A stretch of DNA of 27,654 nucleotides, taken from positions 1 to 27,654 of IMG/VR virus record IMGVR_UViG_3300048690_000136; one strand, 5' to 3'. This document shows, in pieces, positions 1 to 9,624 of the stretch. This DNA is from a virus. The number at the start of each line of letters is the position of its first letter. Within the stretch, counting starts at the first letter, position 1. The notes beneath the pieces are model-generated. The model had not been told where the DNA came from. It did not search any database and saw nothing but the letters and a program-made list of their open reading frames with translations. Position numbers and translations under genes: made by a program.

Positions 1-533
1 CGCTCGTCCCCAAGTAAGTGCATCTCGCCTGCTTGCCACAGTAGCCAACAGATGCGCGTGTCCTGCAAGCAATACGTATGCATCGCTTCGTTGTACGGTA
101 CGTGCCAGATGTCAGACTTGTCAGCGTCTTTGTTACCTGTGGGTGTAAACAAACCAGCGTCAACAAGGTCTTGCATGTAGTCACCCTTCTGTACGTCGAA
201 GCGCTTACCCAAGTTGTCAAGCGAGTAGCTCCCCAACGTAGGATTAACTTTGTGCCACAACACTTGGGTGCAAATGTACTGACCTTCATTGACGCGTAAC
301 CCGAAGCCACGCAGCACAGCCACGTCGTAGCCTGCGTTGTGGAATGCTAGTGTCCACCCGTCATCGAGTAAGTCTTGTAGCTTACACAGCACGGTGTCGT
401 GCCCCACAATAACTTCCTGCATGTCGCTGTTATATAGGCCGCAACAATGTATCTTCGTAACCGTGCGCTGTAGTCCGTCAGTTTCTAAGTCGGCAGCGAT
501 AACGCGTAGCTCGTCTAGTGGGGTAGTAATCAT
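1..533 (-). CDS. T7-type family A DNA polymerase, N-terminal exonuclease part (3' end beyond the left edge)
   Basis: This is the N-terminal 3'-5' proofreading exonuclease domain of a T7 gp5-like replicative DNA polymerase; the polymerase domain lies outside the window. My translation shows ExoI AADLETDG (D15, E17), an ExoII-like AFHNAGYDVAVL, then GSYSLDNLGKRF and an ExoIII-like YCLQDT near residue 165, in the order seen in T7 gp5. The start is the ATG at 533-531, which overlaps the TGA of the upstream HNH gene (ATGA), so the two are translationally coupled. It is the last visible gene of the leftward replication operon. About 177 codons are visible. The fold is clear; whether the polymerase half is intact cannot be seen. 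Confidence 0.9.
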   Translation of the reverse strand, partial: MITTPLDELRVIAADLETDGLQRTVTKIHCCGLYNSDMQEVIVGHDTVLCKLQDLLDDGWTLAFHNAGYDVAVLRGFGLRVNEGQYICTQVLWHKVNPTLGSYSLDNLGKRFDVQKGDYMQDLVDAGLFTPTGNKDADKSDIWHVPYNEAMHTYCLQDTRICWLLWQAGEMHLLGDE

Positions 534-991
534 TTGCTTGCGGCAGTGTGACTAAGTTTGTTAAGGTACGAACGATGTTGGCTCTTACTCAGCAGTTGGT
601 ACGCTTCGGGTGGTGCGTCGCAGTAGTTACTGTCAACGTGCCACACTACGTCATGCGGTGGCTTACAAGTAACTTGATGTGCAAGGCACCACAGTATATG
701 ATGACGCGGTACCCATTTTATTTGGGGGCTACCTGTGTACCACGCGGGTCTGACGTACTTGACGACGCCACGCTTATCAACAAGCCGAGCTTTGGTTCGC
801 CGTGCAGATACGTAGCGTTCTCGCTGGTCGATAGTACCCCTACCGTGCTCTACGAAAAGGTGGTAGTACAATGCGTGATGCGATATGCAGTGTTTTTGTG
901 CTACGTCTTGTATCGTTTGTAAGTATCTGCTATCCATGTAATCAGCAATTGCCATCTGCTGCACATAAGTTAACTGGGTAAGCTGGGACAT
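530..991 (-). CDS. HNH endonuclease with N-terminal helix-turn-helix (probable homing endonuclease)
   Basis: The 153-residue protein has a probable helix-turn-helix at residues 22-48 (TIQDVAQKHCISHHALYYHL). The C-terminal half reads like a phage HNH nuclease: RHHILW (H97, H98), WHVDSN (H118, D120, N122), D125, then SKSQHRSYLN (H139). Free-standing HNH genes of this type nick DNA close to their own insertion site and spread between phages. It lies directly 5' of the DNA polymerase gene and is joined to it by an ATGA overlap, a classic homing location. The start has a good AGGAG five bases upstream, inside the end of a 49-aa frame. The metal-binding set looks complete, so it may be active. Confidence 0.8.
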   Translation of the reverse strand: MSQLTQLTYVQQMAIADYMDSRYLQTIQDVAQKHCISHHALYYHLFVEHGRGTIDQRERYVSARRTKARLVDKRGVVKYVRPAWYTGSPQIKWVPRHHILWCLAHQVTCKPPHDVVWHVDSNYCDAPPEAYQLLSKSQHRSYLNKLSHTAASK

Positions 992-1119
992 ACATACTCC
1001 TGTGGTAATTGGTGGTAACGTCTGACGTATTCGCGGTGTTGTTTAGTAGTCAGCACTTGTAGCCACTGCTCATACGTGTACTCGTAAATTATATTGCGTT
1101 GCAGGTCGTAATTAAACAT
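970..1119 (-). CDS. small hypothetical protein, 49 aa
   Basis: A short frame beginning MFNYDLQRNIIYEYTYEQW and rich in Tyr, Gln and Arg. Its ATG overlaps the end of the upstream 162-aa gene, and GGAGAACACAG precedes it as a ribosome binding site. Its 3' end overlaps the HNH start by about 20 bases and carries that gene's AGGAG. The chain of overlaps fits the coupled organisation of this operon, which is the main argument that it is real. I recognise no domain. It could instead be only a leader that couples translation into the HNH gene. Confidence 0.5.
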   Translation of the reverse strand: MFNYDLQRNIIYEYTYEQWLQVLTTKQHREYVRRYHQLPQEYVCPSLPS

Positions 1120-1600
1120 CTGTGTTCTCCGTATTTATGTTTCTGTCACAGTAATAGACAACGTTGCCGCACTTGAAGTGGTGACCACAGTTGATGGCCA
1201 CGTCGTACTCGATGCTACCCCACCCACTGAACTCGTAACCTGCTTCGAGCAAGCCAAGCAGTAGCCGTGCACGTACAAAGCAGTCACTTACAGGACCGTG
1301 CCGCCACTTGTTACGCTCAAAAAATGCTGCTGCTTTCATTTGATAGTCAACCGCCCCGAGCAGTCGCGGTACTCCGAGACCGACGTGTGGCCCGCCGCCT
1401 TTAATCAGCGTAATAAACTTAGGTGGTTTGTCAGGCTGGTTAGCTAACATGTGGGCGTTGAGTGCGCTATGTGTATCGAACCTGCACAGCACGAGATTCT
1501 TGGTAGCGTAATACATTTTGCGGTAAGCTGCCTCTGCTTTCTCGTTGCTAAACGGCGTAGCTAGTACGTGAAATAGCGCTTCTGCTTGTTGTTGTGTCAT
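1112..1600 (-). CDS. hypothetical protein, 162 aa
   Basis: I do not recognise this protein. The start chosen is the second Met (MTQQQAEALF) because its ATG overlaps the TGA of endonuclease I in an ATGA junction and GAGGGG lies upstream; a start 24 bases earlier is possible but has no such support. The middle is Gly- and Lys-rich (LIKGGGPHVGLGVPRLLG). The C-terminal third contains FSGWGSIEYDVAINCGHHF followed by KCGNVVYYC. The spaced Cys and His residues (CGHH, KCG, YYC) could bind a metal, but I cannot assign a family. It sits between endonuclease I and the HNH gene, so a DNA-metabolism role is possible. Confidence 0.7.
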   Translation of the reverse strand: MTQQQAEALFHVLATPFSNEKAEAAYRKMYYATKNLVLCRFDTHSALNAHMLANQPDKPPKFITLIKGGGPHVGLGVPRLLGAVDYQMKAAAFFERNKWRHGPVSDCFVRARLLLGLLEAGYEFSGWGSIEYDVAINCGHHFKCGNVVYYCDRNINTENTDV

Positions 1601-1932
1601 GCTTGTTGCCCCTCTGTGAGCCACTGCTGTGGTATTGTGTGACTGATACTGACTTTGAAAGTCCTACGTAACCGGGCCTCAACTTTGTCGCTACAACGCA
1701 GGATAAGAAACCGTAAGTCTAGTTGCGGGTTGCTAGCCGCAATGAACTCGTAGCGTTGGCACTCTGCATACGTCATGAACTCCTTGCATTCGAGGTAGAT
1801 GTTATTCCCCAAATAAAAGTCAGGCGTGTATCGGTGCGTCGTCGTGTAGTCAAAGCCACCGTACTCGTAAGGCAACTCGGGGTACACTTTACGTAGGTTA
1901 GCTTCTTGTCGTGAGCGATGTTGCGTTACCAT
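1597..1932 (-). CDS. T7 gp3-like endonuclease I (Holliday junction resolvase)
   Basis: In T7 this enzyme resolves branched DNA and helps degrade host DNA to supply nucleotides. The 111-residue protein carries the PD-(D/E)XK core of that family: RQEANL with E10, HRYTPDF with D38, then YLECKEF with E48 and K50. The 10-residue spacing between D38 and E48 and the E-x-K pair match T7 D55, E65 and K67. SNPQLDLRFLIL and the C-terminal PQQWLTEG also resemble T7 gp3. It is shorter than T7 gp3 (149 aa). AGGT precedes the start, and the ATG overlaps the TAA of the small lipoprotein gene. Like T7, it lies next to the primase-helicase gene. Confidence 0.88.
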   Translation of the reverse strand: MVTQHRSRQEANLRKVYPELPYEYGGFDYTTTHRYTPDFYLGNNIYLECKEFMTYAECQRYEFIAASNPQLDLRFLILRCSDKVEARLRRTFKVSISHTIPQQWLTEGQQA

Positions 1933-2090
1933 TATCGTACCTGGTGATAGGGTGTAGCGTTACGTTGCGGCGGTACTACGGGCTGTGGACTACGCGGCGG
2001 TACCTGATTGCAGCTAGCTAGCAGCCTGAGCAAGCAGGTAGCTACCACGAGCGCTATGATTTGTAAGTTATTATTGGGGTGACTGCGCAT
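1932..2090 (-). CDS. small proline-rich lipoprotein (Rz1-like, candidate outer-membrane spanin)
   Basis: The protein is 52 aa if the ATG that starts MRSHPNNN is used, 13 bases after the primase-helicase stop. A hydrophobic stretch (residues 9-25, IIALVVATCLLRLLAS) ends in the lipobox LLAS-C, so Cys27 would be lipidated after signal peptidase II cleavage. The mature peptide of about 26 residues is proline-rich (NQVPPRSPQPVVPP). That is the architecture of Rz1-type o-spanins, which act with an inner-membrane partner to disrupt the outer membrane at lysis. Its place inside a replication operon is odd for a lysis gene. It could instead be an exclusion lipoprotein. The assignment rests on architecture, not homology. 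Confidence 0.55.
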   Translation of the reverse strand: MRSHPNNNLQIIALVVATCLLRLLASCNQVPPRSPQPVVPPQRNATPYHQVR

Positions 2091-2103
2091 AACTGTCTCG
2101 CTG

Positions 2104-3456
2104 TTAAAAGAACTTGCTTTCGTATTCGGTAAACCCTGAGCCAGGGACAAACGTAAAGTTGACGCGGCCTACTTTACCTGTATCACGGTCAGGTGTGACA
2201 CTGCGTAACTCTGTAACGCCATCTTCTAGTCGTTGCAAGCCGAGCGTAACGCTTGCAACCTGACAGATAGCAGCGCTGCCGCGAAGATGCTGAACCTCTA
2301 CGACGCCAGTGCAACTGCTGTTAGTATGGCTAACGGCTATCATCGTAAGTGACAGGTCATTAACTAACGCTTTAAGCTGATACATTAGTGCGTCAATTGC
2401 GGTGGTCTGTAACCCTTCAGTAAAAGACGTGCTTGCTGCTGTGATGTGGTCAATGACTACCATCGATACACCCAACTGTACGCATGACCTGACGTTGCTC
2501 TCGATGAATGCTGAGTCAGTAGCACCGTAGTGCTTAACGAAGTACAGCATCGAATGACAGTCATCGGGAAAACGCAGCAGCGTCTCGTACATTGTCAGCT
2601 CAAGCGGGATAAACAACACCGGCTTACCGTGTTCGCGGATGTACTTGACAACAAGGTCAACGCAGAACTCACTCTTGCCCTGCTTAGTAGTACCCGCCAA
2701 CACTATTAACTTTCCCGGCCTGTAGCCCCCAATTAAATTATCTAGTCCGAAGATGCCAGTAGTCAGTGCGTTGGATTTCTGTGATGTAGTCGCAGTATCG
2801 ATTACTTGTTGGGCAGTCAACACAGTATCGGGTACTTGGGGTAACGTTGCAAACTGCAAGTCACCACCGTCCATCAACCTTTGAGCTGCATCTTTTATGT
2901 TGTGAGGTAACACTAATCCGTAGATGTTAGTCACACCCCACAAAGCAACGAACTTGTCAGTGTACTCACGACCTTTGTCGTCAGCGTCGAAGCAGAGGTA
3001 CACGTTGCAATGCCCCACCATTCGGCGGATGTCAGCTAACCAGGAAGTAAGCTGCTCATCACTGGGGTTACCGCCGTAACAGACAGATACGCCGCTACTG
3101 ATGAACTGCGAGACAGCCATGCAATCAGTGATACCCTCGCAAACGTACACGTCACAGGGGTTGCCATCCCACAATTGTGTACCGATGAGGTAGCGTTGAC
3201 TACCAGCAGCCCACCAGTTGTAGCGTTTACGCCCCGGCGTCCAGCCGTCACGTCGCAACTGATAGCCAATTGTTTCACCGTCGCGGATAACAGCGGTAGC
3301 AATTTCAAGCGGGGTGCCTGTACTAAACGTTGAGTAGCGGGCGCAAGTCTCAGCCGTTATACCCCTCGTTGTTAGCGGTGGGGACGGCAATAGCAGCGAC
3401 GGCACTTGCAACGTCTCGGCGTGCTCGATTACTGGTGTATCGTAAAGCAAACTCAT
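2104..3456 (-). CDS. T7 gp4-like primase-helicase lacking the zinc-binding domain
   Basis: A replicative hexameric helicase fused to a TOPRIM primase core. With the start at MSLLYDTP (450 aa), LTTRGITAETC at residue 28 matches the beginning of the T7 primase core. A basic segment (GRKRYNWW) leads to TOPRIM motifs CEGITD (E107) and CFDADDKG (D157-D160). The RecA-type helicase has Walker A GTTKQGKS (255-262), Walker B VVIDH, VSHTN (H3-like), LRGS, and PDRDTGKVG near the C-terminus. The T7 gp4 Cys4 zinc ribbon is absent, as in the short gp4B form. The start is uncertain: an ATG 78 bases upstream is open too, neither has a good Shine-Dalgarno, and the frame overlaps the preceding gene by over 100 bases. 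Confidence 0.88.
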   Translation of the reverse strand: MSLLYDTPVIEHAETLQVPSLLLPSPPLTTRGITAETCARYSTFSTGTPLEIATAVIRDGETIGYQLRRDGWTPGRKRYNWWAAGSQRYLIGTQLWDGNPCDVYVCEGITDCMAVSQFISSGVSVCYGGNPSDEQLTSWLADIRRMVGHCNVYLCFDADDKGREYTDKFVALWGVTNIYGLVLPHNIKDAAQRLMDGGDLQFATLPQVPDTVLTAQQVIDTATTSQKSNALTTGIFGLDNLIGGYRPGKLIVLAGTTKQGKSEFCVDLVVKYIREHGKPVLFIPLELTMYETLLRFPDDCHSMLYFVKHYGATDSAFIESNVRSCVQLGVSMVVIDHITAASTSFTEGLQTTAIDALMYQLKALVNDLSLTMIAVSHTNSSCTGVVEVQHLRGSAAICQVASVTLGLQRLEDGVTELRSVTPDRDTGKVGRVNFTFVPGSGFTEYESKFF

Positions 3457-3805
3457 AACAAACCGCCGGGCAAGGATAGTGTGGTGTAGTAACGCGGGCC
3501 ATGCGCATCGTGAGGTCAGCGCAATTAATAACATGAGAGGCGCAAAGCAGCAACGCTAGTCGGTCACCGTTACACTGCATAGGGGGAAAGTACAGCTCAC
3601 GGTAAACGTCAGGTCGGTACTGTTCAAGGTACGTTCGTGACATGCGTACCTCTACTGTTGACATGCCGTGCGCTGTATGTATTAGTGGGGCACAGTGCAC
3701 GATAAACCAGTAGCGCTTGCGACTAAGCAATTGCAAAGCAGCTACTACCCAGTGTAACGGGTGTCGCCAGTTAAACACGGTGAAACAAACAATTGAATCT
3801 TTCAT
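3350..3805 (-). CDS. hypothetical protein, 151 aa (weak resemblance to permuted NlpC/P60 papain-like proteins)
   Basis: Not confidently recognised. The N-terminal part (FNWRHPLHWVVAALQLLSRKRYWFIVHCAPLI) has the shape of a permuted papain-like domain, in which a His (H37) follows an amphipathic helix. The C-terminal PHYPCPAVCYEFALRY could hold the catalytic Cys (C112), as in the YiiX/NlpC group, where the order is His then Cys. This is pattern resemblance only. The ATG overlaps the TGA of the upstream 86-aa gene (ATGA), with AGGC upstream, so translation is coupled. The 3' end overlaps the start region of primase-helicase by more than 100 bases in another frame, making one of the two boundaries questionable. 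Confidence 0.6.
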   Translation of the reverse strand: MKDSIVCFTVFNWRHPLHWVVAALQLLSRKRYWFIVHCAPLIHTAHGMSTVEVRMSRTYLEQYRPDVYRELYFPPMQCNGDRLALLLCASHVINCADLTMRMARVTTPHYPCPAVCYEFALRYTSNRARRDVASAVAAIAVPTANNEGYNG

Positions 3806-4062
3806 GTGCGGTGCCTGTAGTGTGCGGGTGTCGTATCAGTTTGCTTGACGTACTCAACGTAGTTAGTTACTACGTCAGTAACAAGCGCGGCGCTAACGTT
3901 TAACTGAGTTACTGCTTCTTGTTCGCTAAAGTCACCCATCAACAGTCCGTCAGCGACTAGCACTCGTAAGTGTTTGTTCGTATCTTTTAAGTACTGCTTA
4001 ATTACATCCTGTCTAGGAACGCCTGTTAGAATAGCCCATCCGTAATCGCCTAAGTCTTTCAT
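3802..4062 (-). CDS. hypothetical protein, 86 aa
   Basis: A small protein starting MKDLGDYGWAILTGVPRQDVI. It is predicted mostly helical, with an acidic central segment (LLMGDFSEQEAVTQLNVS) that could hold a helix-turn-helix, but no family is recognisable. ACAGGCG is the likely ribosome binding site. Both this site and the first base of the ATG lie in the left terminal repeat (TAGTAC on the plus strand) of the dispersed 194-bp element, so the gene's translation start has been shaped by that element. It is coupled to the following gene by an ATGA overlap. Confidence 0.65.
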   Translation of the reverse strand: MKDLGDYGWAILTGVPRQDVIKQYLKDTNKHLRVLVADGLLMGDFSEQEAVTQLNVSAALVTDVVTNYVEYVKQTDTTPAHYRHRT

Positions 4063-4255
4063 AGTACGCCTGTATTGTAATGATCGTGCCCGTTGAGGAT
4101 GCCCTGTAACAGGCGGTAAGTAGCTTGGGTACGTTTGTCTATTCGCTGGGCTAGCGCACCCTGTACCCCTATCCTATCAGCCTTACAGGCTATGTGCGAT
4201 CGTCTCGCTAGCCTTGACAGGTGAATCGATTGATCGAGAGGGTACTAGTGTACTA
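4062..4255 (+). repeat. dispersed 194-bp element, copy X3 (terminal inverted repeats TAGTAC/GTACTA)
   Basis: It begins TAGTACGCCTGTA and ends GTACTAGTGTACTA. Compared with the reverse complement of the copy at 26492-26679, the first 78 columns align without gaps at about 79% identity by eye, including GTACGTTTG. Inner landmarks shared with the copy at 17062 include GATC...GCCC, TGAG-AT, CCTGTA and CTAGCG..CCCTGTA. The left end carries the ribosome binding site and the first base of the 86-aa gene. The right end lies inside the pentapeptide gene and encodes its unusual C-terminus. Confidence 0.75.
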
Positions 4256-4743
4256 CTAGCCGGATTCATTTCGATGGCATCTTGTATCCACCGCTTATGA
4301 TGCGTCCACCAGTCAACTGCCCCGAAGTCCATCGTCTCAATAGTGTCGTCCTCAAATGCCATCCACTCAGTGATAGAGTGGTATTGACAACCTATCTGCA
4401 TATGCGTAGCAGTGTAAGTAATAGTGTACCACGTAGTTTGTAAGCTAATAATTTCGCGACCGTTACCAGTTGTATCGTGTAAATTAACACGGCATAAGTT
4501 AGCGCGTGATAAGTTAGCGAGGGTTAGGTTAGTGCCGTATAAGTTAGCACCTCGTAAGTTAGTACCTCGCAAGTTAGCACCCCGTAAGTTAGCCCCGTGT
4601 AAGTTAGCACTTTGTAAATCGGCACCCTGTAAGTTAGCACCCCGTAAGTCGGCACGCCGTAAGTTAGCACGCTGTAAGTTAGCATTCCGTAAGTCGGCAC
4701 CGCGTAAACTATCAGGGTATTCTTTGCCGTTAATTAATTGCAT
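4183..4743 (-). CDS. pentapeptide-repeat protein, copy 2
   Basis: After MQLINGKEYPDSL, residues 14-92 are tandem pentapeptides of A(D/N)Lxx type (GADLR, NANLQ, GANLR), predicting a right-handed quadrilateral beta-helix. Next comes NGREIISLQT and a compact C-terminal domain with HMQIGCQ, ITEWMAF, MDFGAVDWW and KRWIQDA. Many phage pentapeptide proteins carry this kind of tail. Beta-helices such as MfpA and Qnr mimic DNA and bind gyrase, but the role here is unknown. It is a tandem duplicate of the next gene upstream and shares its leader. Its last 23 residues (SSTLVPSRSIDSPVKASETI...) differ from the paralogue and are encoded by the end of the dispersed element. Confidence 0.85.
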   Translation of the reverse strand: MQLINGKEYPDSLRGADLRNANLQRANLRRADLRGANLQGADLQSANLHGANLRGANLRGTNLRGANLYGTNLTLANLSRANLCRVNLHDTTGNGREIISLQTTWYTITYTATHMQIGCQYHSITEWMAFEDDTIETMDFGAVDWWTHHKRWIQDAIEMNPASSTLVPSRSIDSPVKASETIAHSL

Positions 4744-4763
4744 GGTAGTCTCTCGTAGTAATG

Positions 4764-5456
4764 TTATTGTAACTTACCGGCGTGGGCGGTAGCAGGATTC
4801 ATTTTGATGGCGTCCTGTATCCACCGCTTATTACGTGTCCACCAGTTGAGTGCCCCGGTGTCCATTATCTTGATAGTGTAGTCGTCAAATGCCATCCAGT
4901 CAGTAACAAGATAACACTGACAACCTATCTGCATATGTGTGGCAGTGTAAGTTATAGTGTAACTCGCAGTCTGTAAGCTGATAATTTCACGACCGTTACC
5001 GATTGTATCATGTAGCTTTGTGCCGTTCAAATTAGCGCGGCGTAAGTTGGTGCGAATTAGATTCGCGAGTTTTAAGTTAACGCCGTTTAAGTCCGCACCA
5101 TGTAAGTCGGCACTCCTTAAGTCGGCATCCTGTAAATCAGCACCGTATAAGTTAGCCCCATGTAAGTTAGCACGCCGTAAGTCGGCACTCCTTAAGTCGG
5201 CGCCGTTTAAGTTAGCCCCGTGTAAGTTAGCACCCCGTAAGTTAACACTCTGTAAGTTAGCACTCAGTAAGTTAGCACTCAGTAAGTTAGCATCCTGTAA
5301 GTTAGCTTCTCGTAATCTAGCACCCTGTAAGTTAGCCCCATACAGGTCGGCGCCGCGTAAGTCAAGGCCATGTAGATCAGCACTACGTAGATCAGCACCT
5401 TTTAAGTTAGCCCCGTATAGACTATCAGGATATTCTTTGCCGTTAATTAGTTGCAT
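4764..5456 (-). CDS. pentapeptide-repeat protein, copy 1
   Basis: A 230-residue paralogue of the downstream gene. It has the same first 13 residues (MQLINGKEYPDSL), a longer helix of about 25 pentapeptides (GANLK, GADLR, SADLH), then NGREIISLQT and the same C-terminal domain with HMQIGCQ and DWMAFDD, ending NPATAHAGKLQ. The longer coil gives a longer predicted rod than copy 2. The leader (GTTACAATAACACTACT, then GAGAGG before the ATG) is nearly repeated before copy 2, so the duplication included the regulatory leader. The TAA lies inside that second leader. A host-gyrase, restriction or DNA-mimic role is possible from family knowledge only. Confidence 0.87.
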   Translation of the reverse strand: MQLINGKEYPDSLYGANLKGADLRSADLHGLDLRGADLYGANLQGARLREANLQDANLLSANLLSANLQSVNLRGANLHGANLNGADLRSADLRRANLHGANLYGADLQDADLRSADLHGADLNGVNLKLANLIRTNLRRANLNGTKLHDTIGNGREIISLQTASYTITYTATHMQIGCQCYLVTDWMAFDDYTIKIMDTGALNWWTRNKRWIQDAIKMNPATAHAGKLQ

Positions 5457-5495
5457 GGTAGCCTCTCACAGTAGTGTTATTGTAACGTTGATAAC

Positions 5496-6095
5496 TTATC
5501 CTCGTGGTCGGTAGCTTGCAAACACTTCGAGCATACTACGCATACCATCGTGTGTCACCCAACTAGATGACGCCGCAACAGTAGTAGACATTAACGCAAC
5601 AAAGTCAGCTAGTTTCATCATGTCAGTATCGCGGTGCTGATGCTCAATTTCGATGTCGTTCTCTGATGTGTAACGATTGATAGCAGTCCAAGCGAGTGCC
5701 GTATCGTTATGCATCTTGCGGTTATTAACGCTGTTTACTGTGTAGCGTGAGTCACTGTAGATTGTAACAGGACCAGCTAGATGTTTAGCGACGTGACGGC
5801 AAGCGTGTAGTACAGCACGCATCTCAGCAAGGTTGTTACTTATTGACTCGCCTACTAGTACGCTACCAAACATACCGTGAATAGTCTCAGGACCGACAAC
5901 ATCCCCGTTATCGTCTATAGCTTGCGACGTGATGACGATACCAGTAGCGGCACGAGAGCTAGGGTTACCCGCTACCGTAGCGGCATCACAGTAGATAGAC
6001 CATGCGCTATTGATTGTGGGGCAGTCATGATGGGCAGAGTGTAACGTGTACCTATCAGCAACAGACAGTTCACGTAACGAGGGTAGGGTAGTCAT
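5496..6095 (-). CDS. ribonuclease H (RNase HI-like)
   Basis: RNase HI cleaves the RNA strand of RNA-DNA hybrids. In phage it would remove primers and R-loops during replication. The four acidic positions are visible: IYCDAA (D37), NNLAEMRAVLHA (E91), TIYSDSRY (D115) and KLADFVA (D164), with the H-x-D segment EHQHRDTD just before the last. The core spans about residues 32-170; the first 30 residues are an extension without recognisable features. GGAG lies three bases before the ATG. The gene is preceded by a 157-base structured leader containing a predicted pseudoknot, the longest gap in this otherwise tightly packed operon, so its expression may be set separately. Confidence 0.88.
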   Translation of the reverse strand: MTTLPSLRELSVADRYTLHSAHHDCPTINSAWSIYCDAATVAGNPSSRAATGIVITSQAIDDNGDVVGPETIHGMFGSVLVGESISNNLAEMRAVLHACRHVAKHLAGPVTIYSDSRYTVNSVNNRKMHNDTALAWTAINRYTSENDIEIEHQHRDTDMMKLADFVALMSTTVAASSSWVTHDGMRSMLEVFASYRPRG

Positions 6096-6136
6096 AAGCT
6101 CCGGTGTTTTGTTTGTAATAGTACGTCGTTAAATAA

Positions 6137-6196
6137 AGCCCGCTATCTCCCCCCTGCTTACTTAACTGGTATCGCACCAGTCGCGGGCTGTAAGCA
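6137..6196 (-). promoter_or_regulatory. predicted RNA pseudoknot in the RNase H leader
   Basis: On the minus-strand transcript the order is UGCUUAC, AGCCCGC, the hairpin ACUGGU-gcgau-ACCAGU, GUAAGCA, a purine-rich GGGGGAGAUA, then GCGGGCU followed by UUUAUUU. The two 7-bp helices are perfect and cross each other, and the first two arms are directly adjacent, as for coaxial stacking. The GCGGGCU-UUUAUUU end also looks like a terminator with a long loop, so folding could switch between attenuation and read-through. No known riboswitch class is recognised. Confidence 0.6.
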
Positions 6197-6205
6197 AGGT
6201 AGTCA

Positions 6206-6240
6206 CCCCAAGTAAACTACAGTAGCGTAGCTTACTGGGG
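6206..6240 (-). promoter_or_regulatory. hairpin directly after the ParB-like gene
   Basis: CCCCA-a-GTAA pairs with TTACTGGGG (9 bp with one bulged base) and is continued inward by CTAC/GTAG around a six-base loop. It sits 12 bases after the ParB-like stop and just upstream of the pseudoknot. There is no U-run after it on the transcribed strand, so it looks more like an mRNA 3'-end stabiliser or processing site than an intrinsic terminator. Confidence 0.5.
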
Positions 6241-6252
6241 TAGCGTCAACTG

Positions 6253-7149
6253 TTAGGCGGGCAATGACAGACCAGCGGCGGCCATCGCAGCTTCAGCAGC
6301 TTGCAAGCGTGCCATTAAATCGCTAGTCGTAGCCTTAACGACCTTGGTTGGTTTGGCTAGCTTGCTTGCCCACTCATTGATAAGCGCCATCGATTCGGGT
6401 TCGCCTTGTGCGTCGAATGCTTCAACTTCTTGGTAGCAAACCGCGTCAACAAGTACCTTGTACTCACGTGCCATGTTGGAAGGCACAGACTCTTCATTGT
6501 TCTCGATGTACTCGACAAACTCAGCAGTCAGCAGTTCAAGCTGCGCATCAGTAGCGTATTGCATACCGGACGCCTTAGTGCCGACATTAGTAGCAATCGA
6601 TAAGCCAGTCTGGAATGTGCAGTCGATAGCAGCAACAAGCAAGCGGGCAAACTTCTGCTTGACAGCTTCGCCGGGTGTCAGCTTAGCGTAGCTAGCCTTC
6701 ACGGTCAGCTTTTCAGCCGGTGTCATTGAACGGCTACCATTGAAAGACTCTTGCAAGTGGGCTAACGCTTCTTTACTGGTGACTTCGATGTATTCACACA
6801 TCACATTGCCGTGGATTACGTCGCCTTCAGCGGGCATACCACCCTCGGGAATGAGTGTTAGTTTGCCGGTCGCATTGACGTAGTAGTTCTCACAGATGGT
6901 AGCGATAGCGATAGCACGGTGACGACCACTGACCAGGTGACCCACATCATTCATGATGGCAATCACAGGGTACTGCCATAGCTGACCTTGCTTGACAATG
7001 CCACGAACAATAGTATCGACGCGACTCTGAATAATTGGCTCTTGTGCAGTAGAGACAGCAGCAGCGGCGGCTTTAAGCTGATCGATAGTAGCACCCGCAA
7101 AGTAGCGGTCTTGTGTAGCGGCTTGAAACTTAGCGTTAAACTCTGTCAT
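6253..7149 (-). CDS. ParB/sulfiredoxin-fold protein, first gene of the leftward operon
   Basis: The 298-residue protein has a ParB N-terminal-like motif, HLVSGRHRAIAIATI (GRHR at residues 75-78), after a beta strand (YPVIAIMND). That is the nucleotide-binding signature of ParB/Srx-fold proteins, some of which are nucleases or CTPases. A helix follows (AHLQESFNGSRSMTPAEKL), as in other phage ParB-like proteins where the fold is followed by a DNA-binding segment. The last 40 residues are Ala- and Lys-rich. GTAGGTAACCACC precedes the ATG. It is the first gene after three tandem sigma70-like promoters and the leftward TTATTTTGGGG motif, so it is probably expressed early and strongly. The fold is inferred from a short motif; substrate and role are unknown. 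Confidence 0.75.
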   Translation of the reverse strand: MTEFNAKFQAATQDRYFAGATIDQLKAAAAAVSTAQEPIIQSRVDTIVRGIVKQGQLWQYPVIAIMNDVGHLVSGRHRAIAIATICENYYVNATGKLTLIPEGGMPAEGDVIHGNVMCEYIEVTSKEALAHLQESFNGSRSMTPAEKLTVKASYAKLTPGEAVKQKFARLLVAAIDCTFQTGLSIATNVGTKASGMQYATDAQLELLTAEFVEYIENNEESVPSNMAREYKVLVDAVCYQEVEAFDAQGEPESMALINEWASKLAKPTKVVKATTSDLMARLQAAEAAMAAAGLSLPA

Positions 7150-7200
7150 GGTGGTTACCTACGGGGTGTTGTGAGTGGCAGCGGTTAAGCTGATGTAATT

Positions 7201-7229
7201 AATGTAGCGTGTATCGTTTGATTTGTCAA
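7201..7229 (-). promoter_or_regulatory. sigma70-type promoter nearest the ParB-like gene
   Basis: On the minus strand, TTGACA (7229-7224) is followed by exactly 17 bases and TACATT (7206-7201; 4 of 6 consensus matches). The predicted start of transcription is about 45 bases upstream of the ParB-like ATG. Confidence 0.6.
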
Positions 7230-7247
7230 GTAGAAAGTTTGTGTGTC

Positions 7248-7262
7248 GCTACTTGAAGTAGC
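7248..7262. promoter_or_regulatory. 15-bp perfect palindrome, candidate operator
   Basis: GCTACTT-g-AAGTAGC has 7-bp arms around one central base. It lies between the -10 of one leftward promoter and the -35 of the next, 19 bases upstream of the latter, which is a typical position for a regulator-binding site. Confidence 0.4.
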
Positions 7263-7302
7263 AGTTGATATGCTTGTGGCAGTGATTCAACCTGTTGATA
7301 AC

Positions 7303-7331
7303 AGCATAACGAATAGCGGTGCAGTTGTCAA
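7303..7331 (-). promoter_or_regulatory. sigma70-type promoter, second of three in tandem
   Basis: TTGACA (7331-7326), a 17-base spacer and TATGCT (7308-7303) on the minus strand. It points into the leftward replication operon. Confidence 0.6.
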
Positions 7332-7392
7332 GTAATAAGTGTCACAGTGCCAGTTACCTTGATCGCGGGTGTCGGTTAACTGCTGCCTATAT

Positions 7393-7421
7393 ATTATAGC
7401 GCAGTTAGCAGCAACACGCAA
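7393..7421 (-). promoter_or_regulatory. sigma70-type promoter, third of three in tandem
   Basis: A perfect -10 TATAAT (7398-7393) with TTGCGT (7421-7416; 3 of 6) 17 bases upstream, on the minus strand. It is the weakest -35 of the three but has the best -10. Confidence 0.5.
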
Positions 7422-7428
7422 CACATTG

Positions 7429-7468
7429 GTGGCTGGGTTCACTCGCTTCGCTCGCTCTCTACGCCACC
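7429..7468 (-). repeat. 40-bp leader repeat R1, downstream of the leftward TTATTTTGGGG site
   Basis: Read on the minus strand it runs GGTGGCGTAG...GCGAGCGAAGCGAG...CAGCCAC. It matches R3 (10097-10137) and the reverse complement of R2 (9800-9848). It starts 18 bases after the motif. The first GGTGGC can pair with GCCAC at the far end, or with the GCCACC immediately upstream (GCCACCGGTGGC is a perfect 12-bp palindrome), so two exclusive folds exist. Confidence 0.65.
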
Positions 7469-7486
7469 GGTGGCAACGTAGCAGAA

Positions 7487-7497
7487 CCCCAAAATAA
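7487..7497 (-). promoter_or_regulatory. TTATTTTGGGG motif, copy A (leftward), candidate phage promoter
   Basis: It shares the 19-mer TTATTTTGGGGTTCTGCTA exactly with the copy at 11578 on the opposite strand. It is intergenic and faces the replication operon. Confidence 0.6.
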
Positions 7498-7498
7498 A

Positions 7499-8022: not shown

Positions 8023-8655
8023 ATGAGACCAGCGAGACAGACAGAAGTGCAACGGGTAGCAGCGCAGCGTGCGGCTTACATCCGTAAGAAGAACACGGTA
8101 CGGACAACTGCTAGAGAAGCAGCGCAGCGTGCATATGAAGCGGGCCGTAGCTACTTTACGGTGGTGTTTAACGGTGACGATACGCTAATGGCTGACGTAT
8201 TCAGTGAAGCAGGCAACCGTTCAGTAGCGGGTACGACTCGCAAGCTGACGACAGTAGCGTTGCAATCTGCTTTGAGTAGCAGCTACGCTAAGGGTTACCA
8301 ACAAGGAGAACTAACAGGCTACGCGGCGGGCAAGCGTAACGTTTATGTAGCAGCCGAAGAACGGAGTAGCAGCGTACTACGGGATGATGACGACTTCGAC
8401 AAAGGGTATTTGATGGGGTACGTTACAGGCTACCGAGACGGAGGCGGGCAACGTTACAACGAGGTAAAGCAGCAAGCTGATGGCGATGCAGGATGGCAAC
8501 CCTGGTCAGGCGTACCTAGTGGTGAAGCCGGGGTGTTCAGCAAGCAGCTACCAGGTAGATGTCAGTGGCGTCGCCCGCAGTTGACTGAAGGCGGAGACTA
8601 CGCCAACAAGAAAGACACATACACGGTATGGGGTAGCGCGAGGGTGACAGCGTAG
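8023..8655 (+). CDS. hypothetical protein with Gly-Tyr repeats, 210 aa
   Basis: Not assigned. The N-terminus is basic and helical (MRPARQTEVQRVAAQRAAYIRKKN, then TTAREAAQRAYEAGRSY). The middle carries two G-Y-x-x-G stretches, YAKGYQQGELTGYAAGKR and FDKGYLMGYVTGYRDGG, a spacing seen in helical repeat proteins with small-residue packing. The C-terminal 60 residues look disordered and contain several Trp. The start has TAGGTAACGACA upstream, the same AGGTAAC style as the ParB-like gene. It lies in the hub between divergent promoters, so an early accessory or takeover role is likely, but no function can be named. Confidence 0.65.
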   Translation: MRPARQTEVQRVAAQRAAYIRKKNTVRTTAREAAQRAYEAGRSYFTVVFNGDDTLMADVFSEAGNRSVAGTTRKLTTVALQSALSSSYAKGYQQGELTGYAAGKRNVYVAAEERSSSVLRDDDDFDKGYLMGYVTGYRDGGGQRYNEVKQQADGDAGWQPWSGVPSGEAGVFSKQLPGRCQWRRPQLTEGGDYANKKDTYTVWGSARVTA

Positions 8656-9283: not shown

Positions 9284-9312
9284 ATCGTAGCAGGTTGTCA
9301 GTAAGTTGTCAA
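9284..9312 (-). promoter_or_regulatory. sigma70-type promoter for the 69-aa gene
   Basis: TTGACA (9312-9307), a 17-base spacer and TACGAT (9289-9284; 4 of 6) on the minus strand. Confidence 0.6.
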
Positions 9313-9349
9313 GCAGCGGAGCCGTAGGCGACACTCGTTAGAGTGGAGC

Positions 9350-9568
9350 CTAGTGAGTCAGGCGGACGGTAGCAGTGATGGCAGTGGAAGCAAAGCGAGA
9401 ACGTGAGCCAGTGAGATTAACAGCGCAGCAAAGGTAGGCTACCTGACGACCTGACTGCGGGTACTTCAGCGAGCACAGGGTACGCCACAAGGTGAAGCGC
9501 TCTACTGTGTGGCGGTTGCTAAACGTCGTGCTGGTTGCGGTGGATGTTGCGCTGGTTGTGTGTGACAT
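9350..9568 (-). CDS. small early protein, 72 aa
   Basis: The frame begins MSHTTSATSTATSTTFSNRHTVERF. The Ser/Thr-rich start is followed by a basic segment (RFTLWRTLCSLKYPQSGRQVAYLCC). It is not recognised. The ATG lies about 20 bases after the predicted start of a strong sigma70-type promoter, leaving a short leader with only TAGGGG as a weak ribosome binding site. Its promoter and the one before the next small gene form a repeating unit of one promoter per small gene, typical of phage early regions. Confidence 0.5.
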   Translation of the reverse strand: MSHTTSATSTATSTTFSNRHTVERFTLWRTLCSLKYPQSGRQVAYLCCAVNLTGSRSRFASTAITATVRLTH

Positions 9569-9595
9569 GTGGTGGTGGTGATTGACTACCCCTAT

Positions 9596-9624
9596 ATAAT
9601 GCCACAGTCACACCAGTTTGTCAA
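9596..9624 (-). promoter_or_regulatory. sigma70-type promoter for the 72-aa gene
   Basis: TTGACA (9624-9619), a 17-base spacer and CATTAT (9601-9596; 4 of 6) on the minus strand. Confidence 0.6.

Follow-up and report, generated by a model that had tools for sequence, protein, structure and literature searches.

A terminator-like RNA element with a crossing upstream helix behind the last early gene of a Saffermanviridae-related cyanophage

Intrinsic terminators consist of a GC-rich hairpin followed by a U-run, and in attenuators an alternative helix of similar stability, formed earlier, is built from RNA upstream of and within the terminator. Phage T7 carries an early terminator, TE, that stops transcription between the last of the early genes under host-type promoters and the DNA-replication genes, and it has RNase III sites between its early genes. 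The put RNAs of phage HK022 are two simple hairpins that suppress later terminators. Pseudoknots near a terminator are common in riboswitches, and the strands of the HDV ribozyme follow the order P1a-P2a-P3-P1b-J-P2b. Here we describe a phage RNA element that shares individual features with each of these systems, and for which a literature search returned no account.

The window, by which we mean the whole stretch of 27,654 nucleotides analysed, is a 27.7-kb virus record with a minus-strand gene block (530-7149) that holds an HNH endonuclease-like gene, a primase-helicase gene, two pentapeptide-repeat genes, RNase H and an ORF7-like gene; its plus strand encodes terminase, portal and capsid genes. 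Protein matches identify it as a relative of the cyanophage family Saffermanviridae (Pf-WMP4, LPP-1). The ORF7-like protein is 30-34% identical to Pf-WMP4 ORF7 and LPP1_g06 and ~ 30% identical to its counterparts in Dor1, Pbo-yong3, Lbo240-yong1 and JingP1, and the primase match stands at 34% identity. Relatives were sought through the ORF7, RNase H and primase proteins and alignments, the leader motif, the S1 motif of the Leptolyngbya phages and the S1a-S2a sequence. These scans yielded L001, L011, L012 and Pf-WMP4, the primase alignment adding only distant primase-bearing contigs with 22-28% identity. The nearest sequence is L001 (IMGVR_UViG_3300046087_000028, a 37.8-kb contig), with 91% identity in ORF7 and 89% in RNase H. 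L011 and L012 are intermediate, their ORF7 being 50% identical to that of the window (32% for Pf-WMP4) with RNase H directly behind it.

Several further features of the gene layout were recorded. The tandem pentapeptide-repeat genes (4183-4743 and 4764-5456, minus strand) share the N-terminus MQLINGKEYPDSL and sit between RNase H and the primase region, where the annotated isolate relatives list gaps or different small genes. On the plus strand, a frame of 210 codons (8023-8655) lies opposite the early-region genes. The primase frame (2104-3534, minus strand) probably starts 26 codons later (MSLLYDTP...), since its listed first part overlaps the ORF at 3350-3805 and the alignment to relatives begins there.

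The element lies in the gap between the ORF7-like gene and RNase H, and its parts and surroundings, in the order of transcription, are as follows.

7201-7331, minus strand: two promoter-like sites ahead of ORF7, TTGACA-17-TATGCT and TTGACA-17-TACATT, in parallel to the host promoters pORF1-pORF7 deposited for Pf-WMP4.
6253-7149, minus strand: ORF7-like gene, the last early gene, with a predicted ParB/Noc/sulfiredoxin-like fold; the element consistently follows it.
6205-6241, minus strand: upstream hairpin of 14-15 bp with one bulged base (z = -4.5).
6190-6196, with an extension to 6199, minus strand: S1 5' arm, UGCUUAC; core identical in L001.
6183-6189, minus strand: 5' arm of S2, the putative terminator, AGCCCGC; identical in L001.
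6165-6181, minus strand: P3 hairpin, ACUGGU/ACCAGU; core CUGG/CCAG retained in L001.
6152-6161, core 6155-6161, minus strand: S1 3' arm, GUAAGCA, within the S2 loop; core identical in L001.
6154-6144, minus strand: link of 11 nt between the S1 and S2 3' arms, GGGGGGAGAUA, read from the sequence.
6137-6143, minus strand: 3' arm of S2, the putative terminator, GCGGGCU; identical in L001.
About 6131-6137, minus strand: U-rich run UUAUUU after S2, with 3' ends expected near 6130; identical in L001, with UUUU(C) at the same place in six isolates.
6103-6120, minus strand: leader TATTACAAAC.A.AACAC, an unstructured stretch past the element and ahead of the RNase H start, with a CGGAG ribosome-binding sequence just after; conserved across four relatives.
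5496-6095, minus strand: RNase H gene, the first gene past the element (Pfam PF00075, E 2.8e-9; PHROG 531).

The first-pass annotation had proposed two crossing perfect 7-bp helices on the minus strand of this gap, and both (S1 and S2) are present, as are the 6-bp hairpin P3 inside the loop (ACUGGU-gcgau-ACCAGU, 6181-6165) and the U-rich run behind the last arm. With 157 nt the gap is indeed the largest of the gene block, the runner-up being 120 nt at 4063-4182. The upstream hairpin also exists, but its size is ~ 14-15 bp with one bulge, not the 13 bp reported. In the window, S1 can be extended to 10 bp (CCUUGCUUAC/GUAAGCAGGG, with one U-G pair).

The arms of S2 are GC-rich and UUUAUUU stands directly behind them, which is the geometry of an intrinsic terminator. 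Its loop of 39 nt, which contains P3, is longer than the short loop that is usual, if not strictly required, in intrinsic terminators, and the element is therefore classed as a variant rather than a plain terminator; a simple terminator scan of the window did not list the S2 hairpin. S1 and S2 share no base in the window and could coexist as a pseudoknot. This sets the element apart from known attenuators, because the competing helix pairs with the loop of the terminator, so that the two structures need not exclude each other. The long loop with a hairpin of its own is a second difference, and the lack of a conserved leader peptide a third. A 14-codon GTG..TAA frame that crosses the element was considered for leader-peptide attenuation and rejected, as its stop is not kept in L001 and it has no spaced ribosome-binding site. 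A promoter within the gap was likewise not called: TTGACG (6244-6249) has no good second hexamer. The leader TATTACAAAC.A.AACAC occurs once in the window and is common to the window, L001, L011 and L012, including relatives without the pseudoknot.

Crossing 7-bp helices by themselves are not rare over 27 kb. Crossing perfect helices of at least 7 bp within 90 nt number 16 in the window (both strands), compared with 8.25 +/- 4.8 in shuffles. When only the gap was shuffled, a crossing pair arose in 242 of 20,000 cases (1.2%), and of eight crossing pairs in the window the gap pair alone is followed by a U-rich run. Given S2, a 7-bp S1 appeared within the 16 nt upstream in 161 of 5000 shuffles (3%), and an S1 of that length anywhere in the whole upstream gap in 537 of 5000 (11%). 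The crossing motif is thus real and moderately unlikely by chance, and not decisive without comparison. Folded to minimum energy, the gap has z = -2.3, a value that owes most to the upstream hairpin.

L001 allows such a comparison at close range. All 28 bases of the S1 and S2 arms are the same in this relative, while changes affect 22 of the 58 remaining gap positions, a 2-nt insertion adjoining the S1 3' arm included (Fisher p = 3e-5). In the neighbouring gene, third codon positions are 26% different, and at that background the constancy of S1 alone (0 of 14 changed) has a chance of 1.4%. S2 and its U-run could explain half of the constancy of the arms. The surroundings vary: P3 is reduced to CUGG/CCAG, the link differs in length and sequence (UGGGGGAAAGACA), the 10-bp extension of S1 is interrupted, and the upstream hairpin carries two substitutions with its pairing kept (A-U to G-U; bulged C to U). 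Since the arms are unchanged, L001 demonstrates constraint, not covariation. The observation named beforehand as speaking against the element, arms that change without compensation in homologous leaders, is not made in L001, but L011 and L012 lack the crossing helix altogether.

A wider comparison comes from six Leptolyngbya and Phormidium phages (Pf-WMP4, Lbo240-yong1, LPP-1, Dor1, Pbo-yong3 and JingP1). Their gap 3' of ORF7 measures ~ 180-300 nt and ends in a hairpin with a U-run, the loop of the hairpin pairing with upstream RNA. The end of the gap follows the plan GCTGGCAAG(CA)...AGCC(hairpin 5' arm)...(UG)CUUG(C/U)C(A/G)GC...(hairpin 3' arm)GGAGGCUUUUUC-AUG. Here S2 is a terminator-like hairpin of 11-20 bp with a loop of ~ 15-20 nt, below the 39 nt of the window, and a tail of UUUU(C), and its pairing is preserved through two-sided change (G-C to A-U; U-A to G-U). 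S1 comprises 9-11 bp, and its variable positions switch only between standard pairs (U-A/U-G, G-C/G-U), with no two-sided covariation seen in the arm core. MAFFT misaligned the two isolate groups, so these pairs were counted on hand-set arms, which biases the counts towards structure. An extension of S1 by 6-8 bp in Pf-WMP4 and Lbo240-yong1 differs in sequence between the two with pairing kept; in Pf-WMP4 (CAUUACAA/UUGUAGUG) it takes up part of the S2 5' arm. The GGAGG ribosome-binding sequence of the next gene lies within the S2 3' arm in all six isolates, and S2 could thus also hide the ribosome-binding site.

Shuffled loops matched the upstream RNA as strongly as the native one, by energy, in 14 of 5000 cases for Pf-WMP4, 7 of 5000 for Lbo240-yong1 and 0 of 5000 for LPP-1. 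Judged by longest helix the result is less striking, S1 being reached in 102, 63 and 0 of 5000 cases, respectively. No alignment is possible between the S1 and S2 sequences of the window and those of the isolates; place and plan are common to both groups, common descent of the crossing helix is not demonstrated by them, and the likeness may be convergent. Within the isolates, the stretch TTGACTGTCACT.GCTGGCAAGCATT (5070-5095 in L004, 4886-4910 in L007, and the same place in the four others) is nearly invariant across genera. It is longer than the S1 arm needs and present in one copy per genome in the three genomes scanned, and may be a protein-binding site.

Folding energies of the two alternatives were compared next to the order of their formation. 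The S1 and S2 states lie at -21.8 and -19.8 kcal/mol in the window, at -34.2 and -34.7 kcal/mol in Pf-WMP4, and at -37.1 (the S1-containing MFE) and -36.4 kcal/mol in Lbo240-yong1. In the latter two phages the alternatives are thus within 1 kcal/mol, the similar stability expected of an attenuator. In LPP-1 (-28.0 and -34.4 kcal/mol) S2 is better by 6.4 kcal/mol, so competition there would be weak. Folding computed on growing transcripts has S1 forming first. Being complete before the last terminator arm leaves the polymerase, S1 can delay or reshape the terminator hairpin.

The first-pass annotation had placed the element before RNase H and named control by RNase H itself among its possible roles. 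Such control is unlikely: what follows the element in the six isolates is a small unknown gene, and RNase H comes two genes beyond that, which ties the element to the upstream gene, ORF7. ORF7 has no convincing family match in Pfam or NCBIfam. Its motifs are GGRHR...A and NGSR..T..E, and its fold model (pLDDT 68) finds ParB, Noc and PadC as best Foldseek matches (E 1.5e-3), a weak but consistent indication of a ParB/Noc/sulfiredoxin fold. It is conserved over several Saffermanviridae genera, and one record labels it DNA-sulfur modification-associated. That its product acts on the element is speculation.

Upstream of ORF7, the coding strand of the window carries four TTGACA-17-TATxxT-like sites (9624, 9312, 7331 and 7229, within 7150-7498 and 9284-9624), and such sites precede ORF7 also in Pf-WMP4 and LPP-1. 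Total site counts are above shuffles in Pf-WMP4 and near shuffles in the window, and only TTGACA-perfect sites were used for this reason. The Pf-WMP4 record gives host promoters pORF1 to pORF7 and none later, and the full deposited annotations of Pf-WMP4, LPP-1, A-4L and Lbo240-yong1 name no RNA polymerase gene. Taken together, this indicates that the element sits where the early region ends, between the last early gene with host promoters and the replication genes, as does TE of T7. Unlike in T7, no phage RNA polymerase is named in the four annotations; transcription of the replication genes must then come from readthrough or other host-type promoters. The element is also more complex than TE. 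A site TTGACA-17-TACTAT occurs within the second gene past the element, in corresponding positions of Pf-WMP4 (L030, 5644-5672) and LPP-1 (L031, 5460-5488). It may be a promoter from which RNase H and primase are transcribed without passage through the terminator; readthrough need therefore not be the sole source of replication messages.

Cyanobacteria have no Rho and use some U-tract terminators, and in Synechococcus elongatus ~ 22% of transcription units end at a hairpin with a U-tract (PMC13289151). Members of the phage family are able to form lysogens (PMC11812291), which suggests what a regulated stop ahead of the replication genes might be used for.

We therefore lean, with modest confidence, towards an intrinsic terminator or attenuator at the boundary between early and replication genes that is tuned by an upstream helix. 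S2 and the U-rich run would act as the terminator for transcription from the early host-type promoters, with a fraction passing on to the replication genes (RNase H, primase-helicase and others). S1 would pair the loop of the terminator itself with RNA further upstream and, as competitor or pseudoknot partner, would delay or reshape the terminator hairpin and so set readthrough. A phage or host factor may act on the element as well. The attenuator part of the original interpretation thus survives, given the S2 and U-run geometry and the six isolates with a terminator and a loop-to-upstream helix at the same place; its ligand and RNase H parts do not. The stop signal in itself is ordinary. What is unusual, and unproven, is the competing upstream helix, whose sequence differs between the two groups that have it.

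The principal alternative, possible although distinctly less probable, is that a plain terminator ends the early genes and that S1 is incidental and the crossing without function. Simple hairpins do occupy the site in other relatives. In L011 and L012 there is a single plain hairpin whose U-run is weak, and S1 is absent. Anabaena phage A-4L has a simple hairpin with UUUUUU after ORF09R, its distant ORF7 homologue (E 4.5e-14), where a weak 6-bp AAAAAC/GUUUUU pairing resembles S1 and was not counted as such. In Pf-WMP3 no ORF7 homologue was detected among the genes tested and no such terminator in the gaps inspected. A terminator-like hairpin after ORF7 is thus general, while the crossing helix, present in 8 of 11 records, is not universal, as the two intermediate relatives attest. 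The abundance of crossing 7-bp helices in the window and the 3% of shuffles that regain its S1 also favour an incidental S1. Against this stand the constant S1 arms of L001 and the independent 9-11 bp S1 of the isolates.

A role in RNA processing or stability appears unlikely. An RNase III cut, or a knot halting a 5'-3' exonuclease such as RNase J, would separate early from replication messages and protect their ends, much as the RNase III sites of T7 lie between early genes; the window and L001 have a long upstream hairpin with the element, and in the isolates S1 is preceded by hairpins. However, that upstream hairpin varies in sequence and length, and the conserved U-rich run directly behind S2 is accounted for by termination.

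A metabolite-sensing riboswitch or an RNase H autoregulatory site is very improbable. The pseudoknot next to a terminator recalls the common riboswitch plan, and a ligand-sensing pseudoknot had been among the roles suggested; yet loop conservation in L001 is poor, not what a ligand pocket would show, the gene context is not metabolic, and no Rfam match was obtained at any threshold. The earlier statement that no riboswitch or ribozyme consensus fits holds for 4227 Rfam families, none of which reached the gathering threshold in the window or an E value up to 5 in 6050-6300. RNase H, moreover, is not the next gene in the isolates. A self-cleaving HDV-like ribozyme without P4 (S1 as P1, S2 as P2, the inner hairpin as P3) can be practically dismissed, for although the strand order matches, the link before P2b lacks the conserved catalytic C in both the window and L001, the P3 loop is not conserved, P1.1 cannot form, and Rfam gives no match even at E 5.

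Returning to the tuned terminator, its two structured parts could, like the put RNAs, act on the host polymerase; put itself consists of two simple hairpins, and no match of the element to it in sequence or structure emerged here. As a bolder and rather doubtful extension, the element might be one case of a recurrent kind of phage attenuator, in which an early terminator pairs through its loop with RNA just upstream. The pseudoknot or competing helix would then time the switch from early to replication genes in phages wholly reliant on the polymerase of a Rho-less host, and a phage protein, for instance the ParB-like product of the adjoining upstream gene ORF7, might read it.

To our knowledge, LPP-1-like phages were the first cyanophages to be isolated, and we found no paper that explains how they pass from the early genes to those for replication when no RNA polymerase of their own is evident. 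Termination in cyanobacteria, hosts without Rho, is itself poorly understood (PMC13289151). A regulated terminator at a fixed place would be a concrete and testable answer for the LPP-1-like switch, and terminators with a loop paired upstream would make useful parts for tuning readthrough.
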